In this document: positions 7,506 through 27,256 of the stretch, piece by piece
How positions within the stretch are numbered: the first letter of the stretch is position 1
Layout: each line of letters starts with the position of its first letter
Source: Gammaproteobacteria bacterium
GTDB lineage: Bacteria > Pseudomonadota > Gammaproteobacteria > GCA-001735895
Direction: 5' to 3'
NCBI GenBank assembly: GCA_026989015.1
Contig: JALSKD010000006.1
Coordinates: 1-34,813, forward strand
Length of the DNA: 34,813 bases
Translations under genes and position numbers: made by a program
Notes under the pieces: model-generated
The model's database searches: none
What the model saw: the letters and a program-made list of their open reading frames with translations, nothing else
What the model was told of the DNA's origin: nothing

Positions 7506-7965
7506 ATCCCTGCTGGCTGCATTGCTGGGCTGGATGCTCCTCGGCCCGGCCTCGGCGCTGGAGTTCGAACGCCTGCCCGAAGACCTGCGCCAGCTGCTCG
7601 CCCCCTTCGAGGAGCAGTGGCGGCAACTGCCCGAGCAGCGCCAGCTGAAACTGCAGCAGGGTGCCCGACGATGGCTGGAGATGGATGCGGAACAAAGACG
7701 CCAGGCCCGGGACAACTTCCGACGCTGGCAATCGCTGGATGCACAGCAGAAAGCGGCAATCCGTGCCCGCTTCCAACGCTTCCGGCAACTGCCCGCGGAG
7801 CGTCAGCAACAGCTCAAGCGCAGCTTCCAGCGTTTCCGTGCCCTGCCGCCGGCCGAACGCAAGCGTCTCAAATCCCGCTGGAAACGGCTCACCCCGGCCC
7901 AGCGCAAGCAGCTGCTCCGCCATCCGCGTTTTCCGCGCCCGTCGAAGGGTGGCGGCAAGGGCTGA
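7495..7965 (+). CDS. DUF3106 domain protein
   Basis: A 156-residue exported protein. After a signal peptide (MKTRSLLAALLGWMLLGPASA) comes a very basic, Gln/Arg-rich helical region built of repeats of roughly 15 to 25 residues with the pattern LPxERQQxLxxxFQRFRxLPxxxR. This is the DUF3106 repeat pattern. The charged helices resemble those of periplasmic metal- or stress-sensing proteins such as CpxP/CnrX relatives, but this is only a resemblance. GAGGAGG lies at 7481-7487, supporting ATG 7495. It is the second gene of the operon leading to the sigma factor at 8838. Confidence 0.85.
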   Translation: MKTRSLLAALLGWMLLGPASALEFERLPEDLRQLLAPFEEQWRQLPEQRQLKLQQGARRWLEMDAEQRRQARDNFRRWQSLDAQQKAAIRARFQRFRQLPAERQQQLKRSFQRFRALPPAERKRLKSRWKRLTPAQRKQLLRHPRFPRPSKGGGKG

Positions 7966-7968
7966 ACC

Positions 7969-8856
7969 GTGCCTGCACTGATGCCGCTGTTGTGTCTCCT
8001 GCTCCTGCCCCCGGTGGCCGGAGCGGACAACGATGACTGGTCGCTGGGCGACGATCAGGCGTTTCCGGCCACTTCCCCCGTGGTCGCCGGCCTGCTGCTC
8101 GGCACGGACCCGCAGGACAGCCAGACCCTGTCGGCCTGGCTGCTGCTGCCGCTGACGCCGGACACCGAACTCGACCTCGACTATGCCCGCACCCGCATCG
8201 ACGACGGGGACGACGCCTTCGACAGCAACGACCTCGGAGGCCGGCTGAGCTACTGGATCGGCGACCGGCTGGGCCTGTACGCCGGCTACCGCTTTCAGGG
8301 CCAGCGCGACGCACTGGAGATCGAGCGCCTGCGCATCGGCATCAGCCGCTTGTCGGCGCGCGGCCGCATAGACCTGTCCCTGAGCCAGGGCGACATCGCC
8401 ATCTACACCCGAGGCGACCTGCCACCGCCGCTGCATCTGCCGTCACGCTTCACCAGCGACAGCAACAGCATCGCGCTGGAACTGGCCCATCGCTTCGGCG
8501 CGGGCGAAGGCATGCTGTCGGTCGAACGCTTCGACTACGACCGAGACCTGAGTCCGCTGCATGCACGCCCGCTGTTGCAACGCATCATCAGCGCCAATGC
8601 CCTGCAGCAGAGTGGCCTGCTGCTGCGCCAGCAGTGGCGGATCGGGTGGGCCTGGCAAGGCGCAACGCGCCACTACAGCCTGCAATGGCTGGACAGCCAG
8701 AACGACATCGACGGCGCGCACAGCCGCAGCCTGCTGTTTGACCTGCGCCAGCCCATCGACGGGCCACTCGATCTGCTGCTTGGCGCCGGACTCGACAACG
8801 ACGACGGCATCCGGATTTCGGTGAGCGCCGGTGTGGAATGGACCGGCACCCGCTGA
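7969..8856 (+). CDS. Predicted outer-membrane beta-barrel-like protein, unknown family
   Basis: A 295-residue protein starting at GTG 7969, three bases after the DUF3106 stop. A signal peptide (LMPLLCLLLLPPVAGA) is followed by alternating hydrophobic/polar strands rich in Asp, Arg, Gly and aromatic residues, for example GGRLSYWIGDRLGLYAGYRF and TRHYSLQWLDS. The last strand is GIRISVSAGVEWTGTR. The pattern is that of a small outer-membrane barrel, but I cannot name a family and the C-terminus does not end in the usual aromatic residue. It overlaps the sigma-factor start by 19 bp. Its place in the operon suggests it is an output or sensor of the same stress pathway. Confidence 0.7.
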   Translation: MPALMPLLCLLLLPPVAGADNDDWSLGDDQAFPATSPVVAGLLLGTDPQDSQTLSAWLLLPLTPDTELDLDYARTRIDDGDDAFDSNDLGGRLSYWIGDRLGLYAGYRFQGQRDALEIERLRIGISRLSARGRIDLSLSQGDIAIYTRGDLPPPLHLPSRFTSDSNSIALELAHRFGAGEGMLSVERFDYDRDLSPLHARPLLQRIISANALQQSGLLLRQQWRIGWAWQGATRHYSLQWLDSQNDIDGAHSRSLLFDLRQPIDGPLDLLLGAGLDNDDGIRISVSAGVEWTGTR

Positions 8857-16999: not shown

Positions 17000-18313
17000 T
17001 TGGAAAAACTGACCCTCCGCATCGTGCTGCTCGGCAGCCTGGTCGGCCTGATGGCCGGGGCGCTGGTGATCCTGTTCCGCCTGTCCATCGAGCAGGTGCA
17101 GATGGCCACCCTGCCCGACGGACGGGTGGGCAACTACGAGGCCCTGCCCGGCTGGCTGCAGTTTGCGCTGCCGGTGGCCGGCGCACTGCTGCTGGGCCTG
17201 CTGTTCGACCGCCTGCCCCCTGCGCTGCGCGCGGTGGGCATCGTCCATGTGCTCGAATTCCTGCGCTTCCGCAAACAGCGCCTTCCCTTCCGCAACGCCC
17301 TGGTACAATTCGCCGGCGGCTGGCTGGCTATCGTCAGCGGCCAGTCGGTGGACCGTGAAGGCCCGGGCGTGCATCTGGGTGCGGCCAATGCGGCGCTGAT
17401 CGGTCAGGGCTTTCGGCTCAAGGAGGACGAACACTACCTGCTGGCCGCGGCCGGCGGCGCGGCAGCCATCGCCGCCGCCTACAACACACCACTGGCCGGC
17501 GTCATCTTCGTCATCGAGGTATTCCGCCTGCGCTATGCCATCCACTATGTGGTGCCGGTCATCGTGGCTACGGTAATGGGCGCGGTCATCAGCCAGCTGG
17601 TCTATGGACCTCACCCGGCCTTCTCGGTGCCTCCACTGCCGCGCGATTCACTGGCCGATCTGCCGGTGATCGCGGTGATGGGCCTGCTGATCGGCCTGCT
17701 CGCCGCAGTGTTCATTGGCAGCGTCAACCGGGTGGCACGCCTGACCATCGCCTGGCGTCCACGCGTGATGTTCGTCTGTGCCGGACTGGTGACCGGCCTG
17801 CTGGCACTGGCGGCCCCGGCCATCATGGGAGTCAGCTACGATGCACTGAACCGCATCTTCCAGCAGCACTACGGCCTGCAGGGGCTGGGGCTGCTGCTGT
17901 TCGCCAAGTTCATCGCCACTGCCGTTTCGGTGGGCGCCCGCTTGCCCGGCGGACTGATCGGCCCTTCACTGATGCTCGGCGGCGCGGTGGGAGGCATCAC
18001 TGCAAGCCTGGTCGGCATCCAGTGGCCCGCGCTCGGCGCTTCGGTGGGTCTCTATGTGCTCACCGGCATGGTGGCGATGATGGGAGCCATTCTGCATGCG
18101 CCCCTGGCCGCGCTGGTGGCATTGATGGAGCTGACCGGCAACATCAACATCATCCTGCCGGGCATGATCGCGGTGGTCGGTGCCGAGGTGGTGACGCGGA
18201 TGCTGGTCGGCGACGGATCGGCCTTCACCACACTGCTGGAGGTGAAGCACGAGCGGGAGGCACGGCAGGCAGTCGAGTCCGCCGGCGGAGAGAAGATCAG
18301 CCCCGGTTCCTGA
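17000..18313 (+). CDS. ClC-family chloride channel/transporter
   Basis: A 437-residue ClC membrane protein. Family motifs include the gating-glutamate loop (QSVDREGPGVHLGAANAAL, corresponding to GREGP with its Glu kept), the AAAYNTPLAGVIFVIE segment, and the chloride-binding loop GARLPGGLIGPSLMLGGAVGG. The N-terminal GSGIP-type motif is not obvious. There are no C-terminal CBS domains. The start is TTG 17000 (MEKLTLRIVLL); no in-frame ATG or GTG fits before the first membrane helix. A small hairpin (GTCGC 16976-16980 with GCGAC 16986-16990) sits just upstream. It ends overlapping the convergent double-hydrolase gene by 17 bp. Channel versus Cl-/H+ exchanger cannot be decided here. Confidence 0.9.
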   Translation: MEKLTLRIVLLGSLVGLMAGALVILFRLSIEQVQMATLPDGRVGNYEALPGWLQFALPVAGALLLGLLFDRLPPALRAVGIVHVLEFLRFRKQRLPFRNALVQFAGGWLAIVSGQSVDREGPGVHLGAANAALIGQGFRLKEDEHYLLAAAGGAAAIAAAYNTPLAGVIFVIEVFRLRYAIHYVVPVIVATVMGAVISQLVYGPHPAFSVPPLPRDSLADLPVIAVMGLLIGLLAAVFIGSVNRVARLTIAWRPRVMFVCAGLVTGLLALAAPAIMGVSYDALNRIFQQHYGLQGLGLLLFAKFIATAVSVGARLPGGLIGPSLMLGGAVGGITASLVGIQWPALGASVGLYVLTGMVAMMGAILHAPLAALVALMELTGNINIILPGMIAVVGAEVVTRMLVGDGSAFTTLLEVKHEREARQAVESAGGEKISPGS

Positions 18314-20132
18314 GCAAGGAGTGGAGTTCCGGGATCAGCCGTTGCTGGAACCAGTCCAGCAGTTGCTGGCGGGCCTGCCATCGTGACAGGGTGTGGTCGG
18401 CATTGTGGATCAGCAGCATCTCGGCGCTGCCACGCCGCTGCATGGCCCGCACACGGCTGCCGGCCTGTTCGCGGAGTATCGCCAGCCCCGGGTCGCCTGC
18501 GGCGAACACCAGCGAAAGGCCCACACCCCGCTGCTCGATCTTGCGCAGGCTGTTGCCGAGGCTGGGCGATATGCGGTTCGGCGGACTGTTCTCGAAGTGT
18601 TCCAGCAACCGCCGCCCCCGGCTGTGCAGTTTGAGCGCAAGGCGCTTGAGGACGGAGCGGGCGATCGGCCAGGGATTTATACGCCCGCTGAGCAGCCGCT
18701 TCCAGCGGTCGGGATCGCGCAGCGATTGCTGGTACCAGTTCCATTCACCGTATTGTACGCTCGGCGCATCTTCCAGTTGCATGCCCTGCTCCCAGTAGAA
18801 GGTCAGCGGGTTGATCAGCACCACCCGTCGGATATCCGCCTGCAGCTCGATGGCGCCGAGAAAGGCATGGTAAGCACCGGAGCAGAGCCCGATCAGCACC
18901 AGCGGCCGCTGGCGCAGCTGCAGCCGGTCGATGACCCGTTGCAGGGCAGCAGCGGGCTGCGGCGGATAGGGCAGGTTTTCCTCGACACCCTCCGCGGCCG
19001 GAGTCTCGCCGAGCCCCGGCAGGTCCAGCCTCAGGGATTCGATGCTGGCCTCGGCCAACCGCCGCGACAGGGTGATGTAGAGGCGATTCGGTCCCACCTG
19101 GTGATTGGAACCGGAATTGAGGAACAGCACCAGCGGATGGCGGTCGCCACCCCCGGTTTGGGGCTGGCAGTGGATGGCGAAATCGGCACCATCGATGAAG
19201 CCGGCGGTCTCGATGATGCTGAAGGCCTCCCCGCTCCCCTCGGGACAGGCCCGCATCGGCAATGCTCGGCCGAGGCCGGAGGCCGTTGCCGGCTGGGGAT
19301 CCTCGCTTGCCGGAGGCGTATCCGCCCAGTCGCGGATGGCGGCGATGCCCTGCCGGGGCAGCCGGGTCAGATGGGCATCCACCAGCATGTCGGCGCTCTC
19401 CTCGTTGGTCAGATAACCGACTTCGCACCCGCCGTCACGGCGCCAGGTCTCCGCCAAGCGGCGGCTGCGGCCGGCGGATTCGCCATCGAGTATCAATACC
19501 CGGTCAGCCCTGGGCTTCAACCCGGTCAGATCGATGGCCGACACGGCGTCCTGGGTTTCCGCATTGAGCACCCAACCGGCCGCTTCCAGAAAATCGCCTC
19601 CGGCACCCTGTTCGGCGCTGTTCTGCAACAGACGGGTCTGGCGGATCAGCTGCGCGCCCTTGACCACCGGCGACCAGCAGATCAGCGCATCCACCGCCGA
19701 TTCGGCACTGGCCAGCGCGGCCAGGGTCGCTCCGAAGCGAAAACCGATCAGCCCGATACCCTCGCCCGGCCGCTGGGCGCGCACATGGTCCAGCAGGCGC
19801 AGGATGCTGCCCACCCACAACGCCGGCTGGTCGGCCGTGGACGGATCGGCGGAGGCCCCGGTCTGCGGATAATCGAAGCGCCAGAGTTCATGACCGTCGG
19901 TCACCAGCCCTTCGGCCAGATGACGCAGCCCCCGGTAGGCATTCAGGTAGTCGATGCCGACCGGCGGACAGAGGATCCACTGCATGCCGCGGGGGGACTG
20001 CAACGGGCGGTCGTTGAGCACCAGCAGGGCCTGTTCCCCGTCCCCGAGCTGCCCCGCCTCGCGCACGGCCGTCCGCGTTTCCCGTGCCGTGCCGGCCGGG
20101 CGGTATTCGCGTTGCGCGTCAAGCGTCTTCAT
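18297..20132 (-). CDS. Tandem alpha/beta-hydrolase protein
   Basis: A 611-residue protein with two alpha/beta-hydrolase domains. Domain 1 (about 35-270) resembles exosortase-system-associated hydrolases (PPVGIDYLNAYRGLRHLA, then DALICWSPVVKGAQLIRQTR) but has Arg132 where the nucleophile should be (GFRFG). Domain 2 (about 330-611) has GLCSG with Cys417 at the nucleophile position, and a late His in HNADHTLSRW. So domain 1 looks non-catalytic and domain 2 may use Cys. The start ATG 20132 overlaps the upstream GH2 stop as ATGA, giving translational coupling; a longer frame to 20273 lies inside that gene. It is the last gene of the six-gene operon. A hydrolase or acyltransferase role is inference. 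Confidence 0.82.
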   Translation of the reverse strand: MKTLDAQREYRPAGTARETRTAVREAGQLGDGEQALLVLNDRPLQSPRGMQWILCPPVGIDYLNAYRGLRHLAEGLVTDGHELWRFDYPQTGASADPSTADQPALWVGSILRLLDHVRAQRPGEGIGLIGFRFGATLAALASAESAVDALICWSPVVKGAQLIRQTRLLQNSAEQGAGGDFLEAAGWVLNAETQDAVSAIDLTGLKPRADRVLILDGESAGRSRRLAETWRRDGGCEVGYLTNEESADMLVDAHLTRLPRQGIAAIRDWADTPPASEDPQPATASGLGRALPMRACPEGSGEAFSIIETAGFIDGADFAIHCQPQTGGGDRHPLVLFLNSGSNHQVGPNRLYITLSRRLAEASIESLRLDLPGLGETPAAEGVEENLPYPPQPAAALQRVIDRLQLRQRPLVLIGLCSGAYHAFLGAIELQADIRRVVLINPLTFYWEQGMQLEDAPSVQYGEWNWYQQSLRDPDRWKRLLSGRINPWPIARSVLKRLALKLHSRGRRLLEHFENSPPNRISPSLGNSLRKIEQRGVGLSLVFAAGDPGLAILREQAGSRVRAMQRRGSAEMLLIHNADHTLSRWQARQQLLDWFQQRLIPELHSLLRNRG

Positions 20133-22642
20133 GAGTTCAGACGCACCCGCAGGGCTTCGCTCAGGTTCAGGGCGTCCAGCGTGCAGCTGAAGCGGGCCGG
20201 TGCGCCAGGCAGCGGCTGCAGCAGGATCTCCCTTTCCTCGCCAGGCGCCAGATGAAAATCGTTGTCGCTGCACCGGTAGCCCCTGGCTTCCACATGCAGC
20301 GCATGGATCAGGCGCTGCGCCTGCAGCTGCAGCCGCACCCGGCCATCGGTGCCGGCTTCGGCGCGGGCCTGCAGCGCCGAGGCTTCGACCGGCTGCGGCA
20401 GCGCGGCCCGCGGCAGATAGTGGTCGATAAGGCGCTCACCGTCTTCAGCGAGCAGCTCGACGGTGACCAGTTCATGGGCCAGCGGTCCGAAGCGGTAGGC
20501 ATAGGTCAGATCGAAAAAGCGCCCGATCAGTGCCGAGCTGTTGACGGTGATCCGCTCGCGGGGCGCGAGTTCGATATCCTGCCCTGCCTCCAGCAGCTGC
20601 GTCCCGCGCTGCCCGAACACCCGCAGGCGCAGCCGGCCACGCAACGGCAGCGCTGATTCGTTGAAGACATGCACATCCAGACCGTTGAGGTTTTCGTCGG
20701 TGACGCACAGGCCGCGCGACTGCCAGATGCGCCTGAGCGCATACCAGGCCGACTTGGGTTCCCCGTCGCTGTCGATGATGCCCCAGCCGGCTCCGGCCCA
20801 CAGATCCTTGAGGAACCAGACCAGCGCCCCCCGGCAGCGGCTGTGAACGCTGCGCCATTCGGCGAACACGCGGCGCATCACCTCACCGCTGACGAAGGCA
20901 CTGACCCGCCAGTAGAACTCGGGCTGTTCGTAGCGCAGCCGGGCGGCGTCCAGCCCCAGCAGTTGCCGCAGGTAGTGGTCGCGCACATCCTCGAAATCCC
21001 AGCCTGCATTGGCATCGCGCGGAGTGCGCTGCTTCCACAGCGGATGATGCAGCACCGCGGTCTCGTTGTTGAACAGGGCCTTGCGCTGGGCCAGTCCCGG
21101 GACATGGGCGAAGCCCAGCGCTTCGGGTGAAAAGCGCACATCATGCGCGCGCAGTTCGCTCAACGGCCGTTGATAGGCTCCGATACCGTAATAGTGGGTC
21201 AGACCGTCATCCGTGCTGAACGGCAGGCGCTCCGTTTCCGCGCTCCAGGGGGTAGAGGGCACATAGGACACGCCGGGATGAAGTTCCGCGACCCAGCGCG
21301 GCAGTCGCTCATAAAACAGCGGATGACGGGCGGCCGCCGGTTCGATGCCCATCATCGCCGCCTGCTGTTCCACCTCGCTGTTGCCGCACCAGACGGCGAT
21401 GCAGGCGTGGGACGACAGCCGCCGCAGCTGATCCCGTGCCTCGGCGGCGACCGTGGCGTCGAAGTCCGCATCGTCCCTCGGGTAGTCCATGTTGGCGAAC
21501 ATGAAGTCCTGCCAGACCAGTATCCCCAGCTCGTCGCAAAGGGCATAGAAGGCGTCCTGCTCGTAGGTCATGGTGCCGCCGACGCGGATCATGTTGGCGC
21601 CGGACTGCTGCATCAGGGTCAAGGTATCACGCAGGCGATCGGGATCACCATCGAGCGACAGCATGTCATTGACGGTCCAGCAGGCGCCGCGGCAAAACAC
21701 GGGCACCCCATTGATGCGCAGCGCAAAATCTCCGTCCTGCCGGTCCACCTCGACGGCTCGGAAGCCCGCTTTCGGCAGATCCAGCCGCAGCTGCTGTCCG
21801 TGGGCCTCGATATCCAGCTGCGCGTCGTACAGCCGGGGCCGACCGTGGGTGTGCGGCATCCAGGGCTCGACCGCGGGCAGCGGAATACGGGCGTCCAGCC
21901 GCCAGCCATCGCCCTCGGGCTGAGCCTGCAGCGGATAATCGACACCGTCGAAACACAGCGTCAATCCCGGTGCCTGCTCGAGATCGGGCCAGGTGGCACG
22001 CAGAACCAGCGAGGACTCCCCGGCATCGAGCCGGGGCAGGCACTGCAGGCCCCGCGGCTGCAGGGCGCTGTGCAGGGCGACACCGCGCCAGGGACCGACC
22101 GGAACTGCCGGTGGCGACCAGCCCGGAATCCGCCCCAGCAGGGTCGTACGGTGAAAGCGCAGGTTCTGATGACGCACCAGACGCGTCTTCCAGGCCGGAC
22201 GCGGGCGCCGCATGGCCAGTGCCGGGTTCAGTGAACGGAAGCGCAGCAACAGCAGGTTGCGGGTCCGCAGACGGCCGCCCATATCAAAACGGTAGGCGCG
22301 GAACATGTTGTCGGTCTCGCCCAGCTTCTCACCGTTGAGCCAGACCTCACAGAGCGTGGCCAGCCCTTCGAAGGCCAGCGTCTGCCAGACTGCGGCATCG
22401 CCACCGTCGAAGCGGCAGGCATACCACCAGTCCGAGTCATCGAGATCGGGAGCACAGTCCCAGCGCCATTCGCCACGGGCATTCAGGGTCTGGGCCACGG
22501 TCCCGGGCACCGTGGCATCGATCCAGGCATCCGCGCTCAAGGGCGGGAGGTCGTCCGGCGTGGGCAGGCTGTCGGGGGCGCAGCGCAGCAGCCGCCAGCC
22601 TTCATTCACGGAATCCAGACGGCGGATGGCGGGCGCGTCCAC
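20129..22642 (-). CDS. Glycoside hydrolase family 2 protein, beta-mannosidase-like
   Basis: An 837-residue glycosidase with the GH2 layout: an N-terminal sugar-binding jelly roll (to about 190), an Ig-like domain, a TIM barrel (about 305-640) and C-terminal Ig-like domains. The acid/base is E423 in VWCGNSEVEQQ, matching the GNNE motif of beta-mannosidases. A likely nucleophile is E507 in RFSPEALGF, corresponding to the SEFGF motif. The barrel also shows ANMIRVGGTMTYEQDAFYALCDELGILVWQDFMFAN, typical of mannosidase-like GH2 enzymes. No signal peptide is seen, so it should act in the cytoplasm. It starts at GTG 22642, GAGG just upstream, seven bases after the DUF1839 stop. A mannosidase specificity is only suggested. 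Confidence 0.88.
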   Translation of the reverse strand: MDAPAIRRLDSVNEGWRLLRCAPDSLPTPDDLPPLSADAWIDATVPGTVAQTLNARGEWRWDCAPDLDDSDWWYACRFDGGDAAVWQTLAFEGLATLCEVWLNGEKLGETDNMFRAYRFDMGGRLRTRNLLLLRFRSLNPALAMRRPRPAWKTRLVRHQNLRFHRTTLLGRIPGWSPPAVPVGPWRGVALHSALQPRGLQCLPRLDAGESSLVLRATWPDLEQAPGLTLCFDGVDYPLQAQPEGDGWRLDARIPLPAVEPWMPHTHGRPRLYDAQLDIEAHGQQLRLDLPKAGFRAVEVDRQDGDFALRINGVPVFCRGACWTVNDMLSLDGDPDRLRDTLTLMQQSGANMIRVGGTMTYEQDAFYALCDELGILVWQDFMFANMDYPRDDADFDATVAAEARDQLRRLSSHACIAVWCGNSEVEQQAAMMGIEPAAARHPLFYERLPRWVAELHPGVSYVPSTPWSAETERLPFSTDDGLTHYYGIGAYQRPLSELRAHDVRFSPEALGFAHVPGLAQRKALFNNETAVLHHPLWKQRTPRDANAGWDFEDVRDHYLRQLLGLDAARLRYEQPEFYWRVSAFVSGEVMRRVFAEWRSVHSRCRGALVWFLKDLWAGAGWGIIDSDGEPKSAWYALRRIWQSRGLCVTDENLNGLDVHVFNESALPLRGRLRLRVFGQRGTQLLEAGQDIELAPRERITVNSSALIGRFFDLTYAYRFGPLAHELVTVELLAEDGERLIDHYLPRAALPQPVEASALQARAEAGTDGRVRLQLQAQRLIHALHVEARGYRCSDNDFHLAPGEEREILLQPLPGAPARFSCTLDALNLSEALRVRLNS

Positions 22643-22649
22643 GGTGGCC

Positions 22650-23621
22650 TCAGCCCCGCAGCCGTTCGTCGATGCGCTGCAGCGCCGAGGACCAGTGCGC
22701 GCTCATCTGACGCAGAGGCGACAGGTCCAGCGGCTTGCGCCGGCTCATCGCCCGCGCCAGCTGGAACTGATAGACCTTGGACAGCGACGAGATCGCCGCC
22801 AAGTCGTCCCGCGCCTCGTGGAAGCGCGTTTCGCCCAGCGATTCCAGCCAGCCGAGGTAGTTGGCGGCCAGTTCGTAACAGGCACCGAACTGGCGGAAGG
22901 TGGCAAAGGAGTAGGCATGGAAGAGTTCGAGATCCCCGTCCATCAGCTGCGGCAGGTCGGCTTCGAAGCGCTCGGCGAAACGGTCGAAGGGATTGGCCTG
23001 CGGCACCAGCCGCAGCTGGCGGCGCAGCAGGTCGAGCGAGATCGCCATCAGCTCACGGTCATCGCTGGCCGGCGCCGGATGCCGCTTGACGATCTCCACA
23101 TAGGGCGGCAGGCGGGACGGATCGTCCTCGCCCAGGTAGAAGACCCCGTCGAAGTCCGCGCCTTCCAGCTCGTAATAACCCTGACCATGGAAATAACCCA
23201 TGCGCCGTGCGTCCCGGTCGAAGGCATTGACCGCTACCGTGGATTTGACATGGGCCAGTCCGTAGGCCGAACCCTCGGTATCCGGCAGGTGCCAGGAATC
23301 CAGCTCGACCAAGACTGGCTTGCCGTGGCGCAACTGCTCCTCGATGTGCTCGGTGAGCGGTCGCCACAGGGCCAGTTCCTGCACTTCCAGGCCGTAGAGG
23401 TCGAACAGGTCGCCCAGCGGCGGCTTGAAAAAGGTCCACTGATCGTCCTCGAAATCGATGGCCAGGGTGAAGGGCATCACCGCCAGGGGTTCATGACCGA
23501 GCGCGTGCAGCAGTTCGATCCAGATGTCCACATAGCAGTTGGTCTCGGCCCAGTCGCGCTGCTGGCTGTGCAGGCGGTGGGGGGCGTAGTCCCGCGGATC
23601 GATGTCGATCAGCTGGAGCAT
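22650..23621 (-). CDS. DUF1839 protein, candidate carrier-protein-dependent acyltransferase
   Basis: A 323-residue protein of the DUF1839 family. It shows three landmarks in the order of a papain-like catalytic triad: C29 in ETNCYVDIWIELLHALG, then D108 in KPVLVELDSWHLP, and H124/D135 in AYGLAHVKSTVAVNAFD. This resembles the N-terminal domain of BtrH, which moves an acyl group from a carrier protein to an aminoglycoside (family recollection; similarity judged by eye). The rest is helical. It lies four bases after the flavoprotein and seven before the GH2 gene. Genes of this family are known to me next to stand-alone carrier proteins. Transferase activity is inferred, not shown. Confidence 0.8.
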   Translation of the reverse strand: MLQLIDIDPRDYAPHRLHSQQRDWAETNCYVDIWIELLHALGHEPLAVMPFTLAIDFEDDQWTFFKPPLGDLFDLYGLEVQELALWRPLTEHIEEQLRHGKPVLVELDSWHLPDTEGSAYGLAHVKSTVAVNAFDRDARRMGYFHGQGYYELEGADFDGVFYLGEDDPSRLPPYVEIVKRHPAPASDDRELMAISLDLLRRQLRLVPQANPFDRFAERFEADLPQLMDGDLELFHAYSFATFRQFGACYELAANYLGWLESLGETRFHEARDDLAAISSLSKVYQFQLARAMSRRKPLDLSPLRQMSAHWSSALQRIDERLRG

Positions 23622-23625
23622 GGCC

Positions 23626-24789
23626 TCAGCGGTCCTTGTGCATCAGCAACAGGGTGGAGTTGTGCAGCATGATGCGGTCATTGTTGACCATCAGCGCCGC
23701 GCCATAGGCGTCGCGGATGTGGCGCGCCAGGCTGTACTCGGAGTGATTCAGGTAGCCCTGGATGCCGCAGATCAGCATCGCCTTGCCGACCACATCGACG
23801 ATCAGTTCGGAACTGGCGATCTTCAGGTTATTGATGCGGATGCCGAAACCGAACTGGGTGAAGGCGTTGAAATCATCCCGGTCGAGCAGACCCTGGTATT
23901 CCTGCATCGCCTGCTGGATGTTGCTGCGCATCGTTTGCAGAACGGAGTCCACCTCGCCCAGGCGGATTGCCGAGATGGGCGGCATGTCGAGGTTGCGCTT
24001 TGCCTCTTTCTTGACGAAACGACGCGCCTTGTCCACCGCATCGGCAGCGATGCCGGACCACAACGACGACCAGGTGATGTGGGCATAGGGATGCATGGTC
24101 TGGCTGAGGATGTCGGCGAAGGGCACGGGCAGGATCTGCTCGGCCGGCGCTTCGCCAGTGACCACATAGCCGTCGCTGCGGGTTCCGCGAAAGCCCAGCG
24201 CATCCCAGGTGGCAATCTGTTCCAGTTGATACTGGCCTTCGAGCAGCAGCACATGGACCTGGTCGCTTTTCGGCGCATCCGGATCGCGGCGCGCGGTCAG
24301 AATCAGGTCGTCGGCATCCTCGCCGTAGGAGATCACCGGTGCCTTCTTGGTGATGCGGAAACCGTCGCCGTCCTGTTCCACCGCGCAGATGCTGCTGCGC
24401 AGGTCACCGCCGACACCGATCTCGGTGGTGGCCGAGGCGATCAGCCGCTGTTCCTCGACCAGGCGGCGCAGGTACCCGGTGAAGAAAGGCTGCTGCCGGT
24501 GGTGATGAGCGATGCAGGCGACCTGGATCTGGTGCATCGCAAAAATCATCGCGGTGGAGCCGCAATAGTGGCCGAGAATCTCGCAGATTTCTGCGATCTG
24601 AGGCAGGTTGAGCCCCATGCCGCCGAAGGCCTCGGGGACATAGGCGCTGAGCAGGCTGGCCTCTCTCAACGCATCCATGCTCTCCTTCGGGAAGCGGGAA
24701 TGCTGATCGACATCGTCGGCATGGACGGCGAGTACCTCACGGCCGATGCGGTGCGCCTGCTCGCGCAGGGCTTCTGACAAGTGGTGCAT
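23626..24789 (-). CDS. Acyl-CoA-dehydrogenase-like flavoprotein
   Basis: A 387-residue protein with the acyl-CoA dehydrogenase fold: N-terminal helices (PEAFGGMGLNLPQIAEICEILG), a beta domain (TTEIGVGGDL, then GFRITKKAPVISYG, WDALGFRGTRSDG), and the C-terminal helical bundle (QGYLNHSEYSLARHIRDAYGAAL). The usual catalytic Glu of the YEGT motif is Val368 here (MVNN), and the alternative Glu position of isovaleryl-CoA dehydrogenase is also empty (around W244). So it may act on a carrier-protein-bound substrate by another base, or not as a dehydrogenase at all. It starts 32 bp after the carrier-protein gene. Comparable pairs desaturate prolyl-carrier proteins in pyrrole pathways. Confidence 0.88.
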   Translation of the reverse strand: MHHLSEALREQAHRIGREVLAVHADDVDQHSRFPKESMDALREASLLSAYVPEAFGGMGLNLPQIAEICEILGHYCGSTAMIFAMHQIQVACIAHHHRQQPFFTGYLRRLVEEQRLIASATTEIGVGGDLRSSICAVEQDGDGFRITKKAPVISYGEDADDLILTARRDPDAPKSDQVHVLLLEGQYQLEQIATWDALGFRGTRSDGYVVTGEAPAEQILPVPFADILSQTMHPYAHITWSSLWSGIAADAVDKARRFVKKEAKRNLDMPPISAIRLGEVDSVLQTMRSNIQQAMQEYQGLLDRDDFNAFTQFGFGIRINNLKIASSELIVDVVGKAMLICGIQGYLNHSEYSLARHIRDAYGAALMVNNDRIMLHNSTLLLMHKDR

Positions 24790-24821
24790 GGGAACCCCTC
24801 CTGGGAGTATGAAGATTCGGT

Positions 24822-25061
24822 TCAGCCCTGCAGTTCCTCAACGGCCTCCTGGATGGCCTCGATGCTGCTGAAGGTCTGGCGGCCGAGCATGGCGTCGGGA
24901 AATTCGATATCGAATTCGTCTTCCAGTGCCAGCATCAGGCCCACCGTGGCCAGCGAGGTCAGGCCGGCGTTGTAGAGGTCACTGGCGGCATCGAGCTCGG
25001 AAACCGGGGTCGACAACCGGCCGTGTTGTTCGAGGATGGATCGGATGGCGGATTCGGACAT
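24822..25061 (-). CDS. Stand-alone acyl/peptidyl carrier protein
   Basis: A 79-residue carrier protein. The phosphopantetheine attachment serine is S36 in LYNAGLTSLATVGLMLALEDEF; the usual DSL is TSL here. The acidic helix II/III surface (EDEFDIEFPDAML) is typical of carrier proteins. AGGAA precedes the ATG. It lies between the ligase and the flavoprotein in the same operon, so it is the likely tether for the ligase product rather than a fatty-acid ACP. It would need a phosphopantetheinyl transferase, not encoded in this window. Confidence 0.92.
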   Translation of the reverse strand: MSESAIRSILEQHGRLSTPVSELDAASDLYNAGLTSLATVGLMLALEDEFDIEFPDAMLGRQTFSSIEAIQEAVEELQG

Positions 25062-25176
25062 GTGTGCGTTCCTGTAATCGTCTTTAATCGTATGCCGGCA
25101 TTGTAATCATTGCCGACCGCGCAACAGTGACCGCTTTCGCAATGAGGGCATTTCCCTTCCACGGTTCCAGGGCCGC

Positions 25177-26721
25177 TCAGTCGCCGGAAAAGACCTGTGG
25201 CCGGATGCGTTTGCGGTCGTACTTGCCGTTGGGTGTGCGCGGAAATTCACCGCTGTGCAGACGCAGACGCGTGGGAATCATGTACGCGGGCAGCACGGCC
25301 TTGAGCTGCTCCTGCAAGCCGGCAATGTCACGCCCTTCCAGGCTGACCAGCGCACCGATCTCTGGCGGTCGTGCGCCACCCTCACCGTCATCGAACACCA
25401 CCACGCATTCCTCCACCCCATCGAGGCTGAGGATCCGAGACTCGATCTCGCCCAGTTCGATGCGGTAACCAAGGTACTTGATCTGGTCATCGGCGCGCCC
25501 CAGAAAATGGCAGTCGCCATTGCCATCGATCTCGACCCGATCTCCGGTGCAATAGAGTGGATCGTGAAACAGCGGATTCAGCGGATTCTGGATGAAGCTG
25601 GCGGCGGTCTTCTCGGCATCGCCCAGATACCCGTAGCTGACCGACAGGCCGCGCACCAACAGTTCGCCCTGGGCGCCCGGCTGCTGCGACAGCCGCCCTT
25701 CATCGTCACGGACGAACAGCTCCATGTTGGGCCGGGCCTTGCCGATGGGAATGCGCAGGGCATCCTCGGCCGGTACCTCACGGATCACATGGTAGCTGCA
25801 GTCCACGGTGATCTCGGTGGGGCCGTACATGTTGGTGTACTGGATGTGCGGGTAGTGCTGCATCATGTAGCGCACCGCTTCCGGTGGCAATGCCTCGCCG
25901 GCGCAGATCAGATGGCGCAAGCGGCTGAACTGGCCGGCCTTGAGGCGGCGAGACCGGATGAACAGGGTCAACACCGAGGGCACGCAGAAGAATACGGTGA
26001 TGCCCTCGTCGTCGATCCAGCGGATCAGCCGAGGCAGCACGCTGTTGAGTTCGTCCGGCACCAGATGCAGGGTGGCCCCCGCCTTGAAGGCGGTGTACAG
26101 GTCGAAGGTGGAGTTGTCGAAATACAACGGCGCATGATTCGAGACATGGTCCCGTTCGTCGATGCCGTAGAAGTCCACGCACCAGTCGATGTAGTCGATG
26201 ATCGCCTGATGCGGAATCATCACGCCCTTAGGCACGCCGGTGGAACCGGAGGTGAACAGCACATAGGCCAGGTCGATGGACAGGGTCGGGTCGTCCAGCG
26301 GGCCATCGTCCTCGCTGGACGGGTTGAAGGCCTCGATATCGATGACGGTCAAACCTTCTCGCTCGGGCAACAGATCACGCAGGCGCTCGGCCGACGCACG
26401 GTCGGTGACGATCAGATCCGTCTGCAGGCTGTCGAGTATGGACTCCAGCCGTGCGGCCGGAGAAGCGACATCGATCGGCACATAGGCGCAGCCGGCCTTG
26501 AGTATCGACACCAGCGCCTGGATGGCGGGTATGCCCTTGGGCATGAAAAAGGGCACGAAACGCCCGCGAACGGCGCCCTGCCTTATCAGAAAACGGGCGA
26601 AAGAATTGCCAAATGCGTCAAGTTTTTGATAGGATAGCGACGCGTTCCGACAGGTCACCGCAGTTCTGTCGGGAAATCGTCTTGCGGATTCCGAGATATA
26701 GTCCTGCACTCTGGTCGTCAT
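25177..26721 (-). CDS. Stand-alone adenylating ligase (NRPS A-domain / DltA-like)
   Basis: A 514-residue ANL-family ligase that should activate an acid as its adenylate and load it on the carrier protein. Core motifs are present: LFTSGSTGVPKG (A3, 156-166), NMYGPTEIT (A5), CTGD (A7, 391-394), the A8 hinge GRADDQIKYLGYRIE, and A10 NGKYDRK with K500. The A4 Asp is D202 (FDNSTFDLY), as in enzymes that bind an alpha-amino group. Residues at the GrsA pocket positions read roughly D, N, F, S, I, A, M, V, K; this matches no specificity I know with confidence. It is the first gene of the operon. The ATG at 26721 follows GGGTAGG. A 115-bp gap separates it from the carrier protein. Confidence 0.92.
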   Translation of the reverse strand: MTTRVQDYISESARRFPDRTAVTCRNASLSYQKLDAFGNSFARFLIRQGAVRGRFVPFFMPKGIPAIQALVSILKAGCAYVPIDVASPAARLESILDSLQTDLIVTDRASAERLRDLLPEREGLTVIDIEAFNPSSEDDGPLDDPTLSIDLAYVLFTSGSTGVPKGVMIPHQAIIDYIDWCVDFYGIDERDHVSNHAPLYFDNSTFDLYTAFKAGATLHLVPDELNSVLPRLIRWIDDEGITVFFCVPSVLTLFIRSRRLKAGQFSRLRHLICAGEALPPEAVRYMMQHYPHIQYTNMYGPTEITVDCSYHVIREVPAEDALRIPIGKARPNMELFVRDDEGRLSQQPGAQGELLVRGLSVSYGYLGDAEKTAASFIQNPLNPLFHDPLYCTGDRVEIDGNGDCHFLGRADDQIKYLGYRIELGEIESRILSLDGVEECVVVFDDGEGGARPPEIGALVSLEGRDIAGLQEQLKAVLPAYMIPTRLRLHSGEFPRTPNGKYDRKRIRPQVFSGD

Positions 26722-26816: not shown

Positions 26817-26848
26817 CCACTCAGGCACAGGTATTCTTGAACCCACAA

Positions 26849-27256
26849 ATGACACGCTCAGCAACGCAGTACCGGCATCACCCGCTTCTTGTCCTCATTG
26901 TTCTGCTCTCGCTGGCTCTCACCGCATGCGGTGGCGGAGGCGATGTTCTCCGCAGCGGCAGCGGCGAAGTGGTGGCGACCCTGACTTGGGTGCCGCCTGA
27001 GGAGAACACCGACAACACGCCACTGGAAGACCTCGAGGGCTACCGTCTGTACATGGGCGATTCACCGAACAGCCTGCAACCGGTGATCGACATTCCCGCT
27101 TCGACGACCCGCTTCGAGATCACCGATGACGATGTCTTCTCCGCCATCGGCAGCACCGCCACCGGGCGCAGCCTGACGGTCTACTTCGCCCTGACGGCCT
27201 ACAATTCGCTGCGCATCGAGAGCAGCCTTTCGGAGATCGTCTCCAAGGCCTTCTGA
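26849..27256 (+). CDS. Lipoprotein with fibronectin-III-like domain
   Basis: A lipoprotein of 135 residues from ATG 26849. The signal peptide (LLVLIVLLSLALTAC) ends in lipobox LTAC, followed by a Gly-rich stretch. The mature part is a single Fn3-like domain: VATLTWVPPEENTDNTPLEDLEGYRLYMGDSPNSL, then a typical last strand YFALTAYNSLRIESSLSEIVSKAF. Small proteins with this domain are common in Gram-negative bacteria as surface or exopolysaccharide-associated lipoproteins. A TTG at 26837 could also start it. It is transcribed away from the carrier-protein operon from a shared intergenic region, so a functional link is possible but unproven. Confidence 0.78.
   Translation: MTRSATQYRHHPLLVLIVLLSLALTACGGGGDVLRSGSGEVVATLTWVPPEENTDNTPLEDLEGYRLYMGDSPNSLQPVIDIPASTTRFEITDDDVFSAIGSTATGRSLTVYFALTAYNSLRIESSLSEIVSKAF

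Follow-up and report, generated by a model that had tools for sequence, protein, structure and literature searches.

The window, i.e. the whole stretch of 34,813 nucleotides that was analysed, raises the question of which pathway is served by its six tightly packed open reading frames (ORFs) of the minus strand, which encode an adenylation domain, a carrier protein, an acyl-CoA-dehydrogenase-like flavoprotein, a DUF1839 protein, a GH2 family protein and a tandem alpha/beta-hydrolase. The six leftward genes and their junctions, as reported by an earlier sequence-only reading, are all present at the coordinates listed below, and their domains have been verified by Pfam and NCBIfam; from the adenylation domain to the hydrolase, the junctions computed from the ORF coordinates measure 115, 32, 4, 7 and -4 bp.

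25177..26721, minus strand: stand-alone NRPS-type adenylation (A) domain, 514 aa, predicted to take the role of amino acid:[carrier protein] ligase (Pfam AMP-binding, 2.7e-75)
24822..25061, minus strand: stand-alone carrier protein (CP), 79 aa, NCBIfam PRK07081 family (Pfam PP-binding, 1.8e-8)
24954..24956, minus strand: codon (TCG) of CP Ser36, predicted phosphopantetheine site, conserved in the alignment
23626..24789, minus strand: acyl-CoA-dehydrogenase-fold flavoprotein, 387 aa (Pfam acyl-CoA_dh_N, 3.9e-14)
24079..24081, minus strand: codon of flavoprotein His237, invariant, adjoining the isovaleryl-CoA-dehydrogenase-type Glu position
22650..23621, minus strand: DUF1839 (PF08893), 323 aa, predicted papain-fold CP-dependent amide synthase (Pfam, 8e-117)
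23535..23537, minus strand: codon of DUF1839 Cys29, predicted nucleophile (alignment and PMC10318531)
23187..23189, minus strand: codon of DUF1839 His145, invariant, predicted partner in a Cys-(Ser/Thr)-His triad (alignment and PMC10318531)
20129..22642, minus strand: GH2 family protein, 837 aa, GTG start, closest to beta-mannosidases (GH2 N-terminal domain, 6.8e-22)
18297..20132, minus strand: tandem alpha/beta-hydrolase, 611 aa (Pfam alpha/beta-hydrolase matches in both halves)
18882..18884, minus strand: codon of tandem hydrolase Cys417, predicted nucleophile (alignment)

The start of the tandem hydrolase is most likely the ATG at position 20132, with a 4-bp overlap with the GH2 gene. No convincing promoter was found upstream: sigma-54-like matches did not exceed those of shuffled sequences, and the intergenic gaps held no sigma-70-like match. 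A small ORF with a lipoprotein-like start and no family match (26837-27256 of the window) is located divergently from the operon; another lipoprotein-like ORF (7591-8262) is located upstream of the operon of locus L029.

The conservation of the operon has been assessed by scanning the GTDB representative genomes with the DUF1839 alignment, which gave 579 confirmed stretches, the best 80 of which were analysed. The 80 loci are the relatives nearest to the window, and fractions counted among them do not hold for DUF1839 genes at large. Homologs of the flavoprotein are found in 75 of them, of the CP in 74, of the GH2 protein in 73 and of the tandem hydrolase in 54; the CP, the flavoprotein (ACD), DUF1839 and GH2 occur together in 67 of the 80, including 37 loci with the exact order CP-ACD-LIG-DUF1839-GH2-HYD. 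The 67 loci span at least nine phyla (Pseudomonadota, Actinomycetota, Planctomycetota, Myxococcota, Verrucomicrobiota, Acidobacteriota, Chloroflexota, Gemmatimonadota and Abditibacteriota). Because these four gene types co-occur so often, the operon grouping is not due to chance, and the proposal that the window's six genes belong together is borne out, five of the six gene types co-occurring strongly across genomes. DUF1839 itself is uncommon: out of 398 genomes sampled for the phylum 16 have it, and within the order of the window it is found in only 2 of 41, both of the window's genus. At six loci (L065, L067, L074, L077, L078 and L080) the CP gene is located between DUF1839 and GH2 (ACD-LIG-DUF1839-CP-GH2).

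Amino acid:[carrier protein] ligases were reportedly described in 2010, and the window, with a PRK07081 CP (108.4 bits, cut-off 72; Ser36 conserved in 75 of 75 aligned sequences), a flavoprotein, DUF1839 and a glycosidase in one operon, has the gene content of the canonical operons of these ligases. The Bll0957 and Atu2573-Atu2574 operons likewise combine a PRK07081-family CP, a redox enzyme, a glycosidase and the conserved, uncharacterised ORF Atu2574, which we take to be a DUF1839 protein from its place beside Atu2573. The sequence-only reading had pointed to dedicated amino-acid ligases in rhizobia, and rightly so, as the ligases found there belong to the same operon family. The genome of the window differs in that it has no synthetase-like ligase and carries a dedicated NRPS A-domain instead.

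The canonical ligase, a gene of about 310 aa that is normally located between the flavoprotein and DUF1839 genes, is present in 70 of the 80 loci and missing from the window operon. It is a PRK07080 amino acid--[acyl-carrier-protein] ligase (423-448 bits, cut-off 357) and a class-II tRNA-synthetase homologue (E 5e-75 against PDB 4h2w/3mey, the Bll0957 family); Cys, Glu and Cys residues at the positions of the zinc ligands of Bll0957 are invariant in 54 of 54 sequences. The substrates reported for the Bll0957-family ligases are Gly and Ala. No PRK07080 gene was found in the window operon or anywhere in the whole genome of the window. The ligase is also missing from six loci where the flavoprotein gene still adjoins DUF1839 (L023, L029, L038, L049, L053 and L054), and no PRK07080 gene was found in the whole genomes of these six. 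Five of the six encode an A-domain that is 57-78% identical to that of the window, while none of the 31 genomes with the canonical ligase holds an ortholog (best match 37% identity, 304 bits); A-domain-like matches in the genomes of L021 and L041 were judged not to be orthologous (36-37% identity). With the window included, the A-domain is thus present in 6 of 7 ligase-less genomes and in 0 of 31 ligase-bearing ones. The Gemmatimonadota operon at L054:636-6870 comes from a genome, possibly incomplete, in which neither type of ligase was found.

The window and L053 carry the A-domain gene in the operon itself; in L038 and L049 it is a few kb distant, while L023 and L029 have it at another place in the genome. 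This lack of linkage in two relatives, together with the 115-bp gap between the A-domain and CP genes of the window, would suit an A-domain that belongs to another pathway and adjoins the operon by chance, with the CP loaded otherwise or not at all; the near-strict complementarity with the synthetase-like ligase makes such an arrangement most improbable, as does the fact that the A-domain hardly occurs where the operon is missing: among the 369 genomes of the class, only those of the window and L023 have an ortholog, and both carry a DUF1839 operon. Fisher's test on the complementarity gives 2.5e-6, a value that ignores kinship; of five independent pairs, 4-5 support the complementarity and none contradicts it (p 0.06-0.125, where fewer than six pairs cannot reach 0.05). 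In the DUF1839 tree, at least five changes on supported branches are required to account for the ligase-less operons, and their grouping as one clade is rejected (AU p < 1e-50); therefore, the exchange of the ligase, or the transfer of operon parts, has probably happened several times.

The A-domain of the window scores 360.9 bits against TIGR01733 (cut-off 317.4), and its pocket code is DNFFIAMVDK, with DNFF[IL]AMVDK in all six A-domain sequences. Pockets for alpha-amino acids usually have Asp at their first position, and the large Phe and Met residues predicted here suggest a small side chain; taken together with the substrates of the ligase that is replaced, the pocket residues make a small amino acid, Gly or Ala, the most likely substrate.

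The next enzyme, the flavoprotein, bears on whether the operon follows the pyrrole pathway of PltF/PltL/PltE, to which it had been likened before, i.e. whether a loaded proline is oxidised by the flavoprotein to a CP-bound pyrrole. The same three folds are found there (A-domain, stand-alone CP and acyl-CoA-dehydrogenase fold), and the PDB matches of the A-domain include an L-proline--[L-prolyl-carrier protein] ligase (6o6e). The classical catalytic Glu of the acyl-CoA dehydrogenases is however found at neither of its two sites in the aligned family: the isovaleryl-CoA dehydrogenase position (IVD-254) is occupied by Ala236 in the window and by Ser, Ala or Thr in all 75 sequences, and the other possible position (MCAD-376) by Val368 in the window and by Val, Ile or Leu in all aligned members. 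Since both catalytic Glu residues are absent, the PltE-like analogy fails, and the flavoprotein reaches 35.7 bits with the RedW model of prolyl-PCP dehydrogenases (NF045652, cut-off 650); moreover, relatives fill the same place in the pathway with a Bll0957-family ligase, for which Gly and Ala are reported as substrates. We thus regard a carrier-bound pyrrole as a very unlikely product. The model of the flavoprotein (pLDDT 93) has the acyl-CoA dehydrogenase fold with Z up to 42.7, next to flavin monooxygenases of the same fold at 39-41, and the fold comparison (Foldseek, VIA) does not separate the two classes at Z 39-43. The flavoprotein is likely to oxidise the CP-bound group, and an oxygenase, oxidase or His-assisted reaction is more likely than the classical Glu-dependent dehydrogenation; His86 and His237 are invariant in the alignment. 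At residue 204, in the motif RGTCS, Arg occurs in 2 of 75 sequences (the window and L053) and Cys in 73.

The step that would follow, the transfer of the acyl group, is assigned to DUF1839 (PF08893, 390.4 bits, cut-off 22.5), a family that has been classed as papain-like with a Cys-(Thr/Ser)-His arrangement and for which glycan processing has been guessed (PMC10318531). The AlphaFold2 model of the window protein (mean pLDDT 95) finds its best solved matches in CcbD (Z 19.5 over 282 of 323 residues), AziU3 (18.4) and CtaG (18.0), the next family being at 7.5; the match takes in both the papain core and the C-terminal helical domain, near full length. A sequence search of the solved structures gave no match for DUF1839, and therefore the relation to CcbD rests on the fold. 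In the alignment of 81 sequences, Cys29 (81 of 81), His124, His145 and Arg290 are invariant, and position 127 is Ser or Thr. Cys29 is missing only from the second DUF1839 copies L017:1465-2451 (ANRHIDLW) and L018:1471-2451 (ANQQIDLW), and in G328 a Cys-less copy is located about 5 kb from an intact one; such copies may be non-catalytic partners.

CcbD/LmbD, the condensing enzyme of lincosamide biosynthesis, resembles DUF1839 in its fold, in its catalytic Cys and in having a stand-alone A-domain and a CP as partners. CcbD transfers a CP-bound prolyl group to its Cys and then to the amine of a thiooctose, an amino sugar, and Arg residues in its C-terminal part contact the CP (PMC12945683). The two differ in that CcbD has a Cys-His-Glu triad while DUF1839 has the invariant Cys29 and His145 with Ser/Thr127, and the accessible text on CcbD names neither a flavoprotein nor a GH2 protein or tandem hydrolase as its partner. 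AziU3 (azinomycin) and CtaG (closthioamide) share the DUF1839 fold over 268-285 aligned residues at Z of about 17-18, but are only about 9-13% identical to it and belong to other pathways with other products. BtrH (butirosin) is also papain-like and acylates an aminoglycoside from a CP-bound donor (PMC10318531), although its Pfam family is separate from DUF1839 and the likeness is one of description. The modelled fold thus lends support to one part of the sequence-only reading, namely that the CP is charged with an amino acid, which DUF1839 then passes on.

The products of the last two genes of the operon are predicted to act on a glycoside or an acyl product. The best PDB matches of the GH2 protein are beta-mannosidases, and both of its catalytic Glu residues are intact, the predicted acid/base Glu423 being conserved in 62 of 66 sequences and the nucleophile Glu507 in 66 of 66; on the basis of these residues and of the beta-mannosidase likeness, it is plausible that GH2 trims a glycan. 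No evident signal peptide was found in its sequence, and GH2 is therefore probably cytosolic. The N-terminal half of the tandem hydrolase (GFRFG) has no nucleophile, with Arg or Gly in the elbow, and resembles XrtA-associated hydrolase 2; the C-terminal half (GLCSG) has Cys417 at the nucleophile elbow in 51 of 51 sequences and resembles XrtA-associated hydrolase 1. These likenesses, together with the theme of an AMP ligase and a CP, recall the XrtA/PEP-CTERM exopolysaccharide systems, and in a Reinekea relative XrtA exopolysaccharide genes are the neighbours of the operon and the A-domain; in contrast, the window hydrolase is below the cut-offs of both TIGR03100 (66.6 bits, cut-off 168.45) and TIGR03101 (40, cut-off 202.75), and no XrtA gene was seen in the window. 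In the same Reinekea relative, a FkbH-domain protein and a second tandem hydrolase are encoded between the operon and the A-domain gene (L128:5063-8399, the same as L049:15411-18747). Another contig of the window's genome carries an exosortase-like gene (111.6 bits, cut-off 208), with a PrsR regulator above its cut-off and PrsK/PrsT-like genes below theirs as neighbours.

No glycan gene was recognised near the operon within the window, and other genomes suggest that the acceptor is an amine that is probably part of a glycan. The genes that neighbour the operon in the 80 loci, whose clusters were identified by Pfam from one member of each, include family-4 glycosyltransferases (21), ACPS-type phosphopantetheinyl transferases (19) and polysaccharide deacetylases (10), as well as sugar-nucleotide enzymes. 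The product could instead be a soluble small molecule, i.e. a signal or an antibiotic-like aminoacyl glycoside, and not a modification of a surface glycan: CcbD, AziU3, CtaG and BtrH are all from secondary metabolism, a GH2 protein without an evident signal peptide would probably act on a small glycoside in the cytosol, and no glycosyltransferase or exporter gene is found inside the window operon. On the other hand, the operon is little changed across at least nine phyla, which is unusual for a specialised metabolite, and many loci adjoin exopolysaccharide genes; a soluble product is possible, but we hold it to be unlikely.

From the gene content, orthology, active-site conservation, ligase exchange and fold match that we have observed, we infer the reactions, the amino acid, the chemistry of the oxidation, the acceptor and the order of the steps as follows. 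The A-domain would adenylate a small amino acid, with Gly or Ala the most likely ones, and attach it to the phosphopantetheine arm that is borne by Ser36 of the CP, filling the job that the Bll0957-type class-II tRNA-synthetase homologue has in most relatives; the flavoprotein would then oxidise the CP-bound aminoacyl group, and DUF1839 would take the acyl group on Cys29 and pass it to an amine, probably that of an amino sugar. The beta-mannosidase-like GH2 and the Cys-nucleophile tandem hydrolase would process the glycoside or the acyl product, probably for a surface or exported glycan. That the operon is a variant of a widespread aminoacyl-CP pathway with these steps of loading, oxidation, DUF1839 transfer and glycoside or acyl processing is, in our judgement, rather probable; counting against the mechanism are the unlinked A-domain genes of two genomes with the swap, the genome of L054 with neither ligase, and the catalytic order of DUF1839 (Cys, Ser/Thr, His) as opposed to that of CcbD. 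Of the interpretation given by the sequence-only reading, amino-acid loading and transfer stand and the pyrrole analogy falls, while the A-domain as a replacement of the ligase, and a mechanism predicted already, had been overlooked.

The mechanism of the canonical operon was predicted in 2010 (PMC2922099). Our findings agree with that prediction, to which they add the fold evidence, i.e. structural support for DUF1839, the loss of the catalytic Glu in the flavoprotein and the replacement of the ligase by an A-domain; the structural support and the recurrence of the swap are new here. A literature search that covered few subscription journals gave no functional study of DUF1839, Bll0957, Bll6282, Atu2573 or PRK07080/07081, and none of the papers found in it names the product of the pathway of the amino acid:[carrier protein] ligases; we class the operon as a variant of a known system with no described function.

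The exchange suggests that an NRPS A-domain, a member of a well-understood enzyme class, can stand in for the amino acid:[carrier protein] ligases, and so makes the substrate easy to approach and provides a natural way of testing the partners of the CP. The fold match between DUF1839 and CcbD gives the 2010 prediction a structural support that it apparently lacked before, and CcbD has been solved in complex with a CP and with an amino sugar. In its fullest form, our reading, which we put forward tentatively and at somewhat less than even chances, is that a tRNA-synthetase homologue and an NRPS A-domain have repeatedly been exchanged on the same CP, feeding an undescribed pathway of at least nine phyla in which an oxidised aminoacyl group is passed to a sugar amine by a CcbD-like papain-fold enzyme; if true, this would be a common but undescribed aminoacyl modification of sugars in many bacteria.
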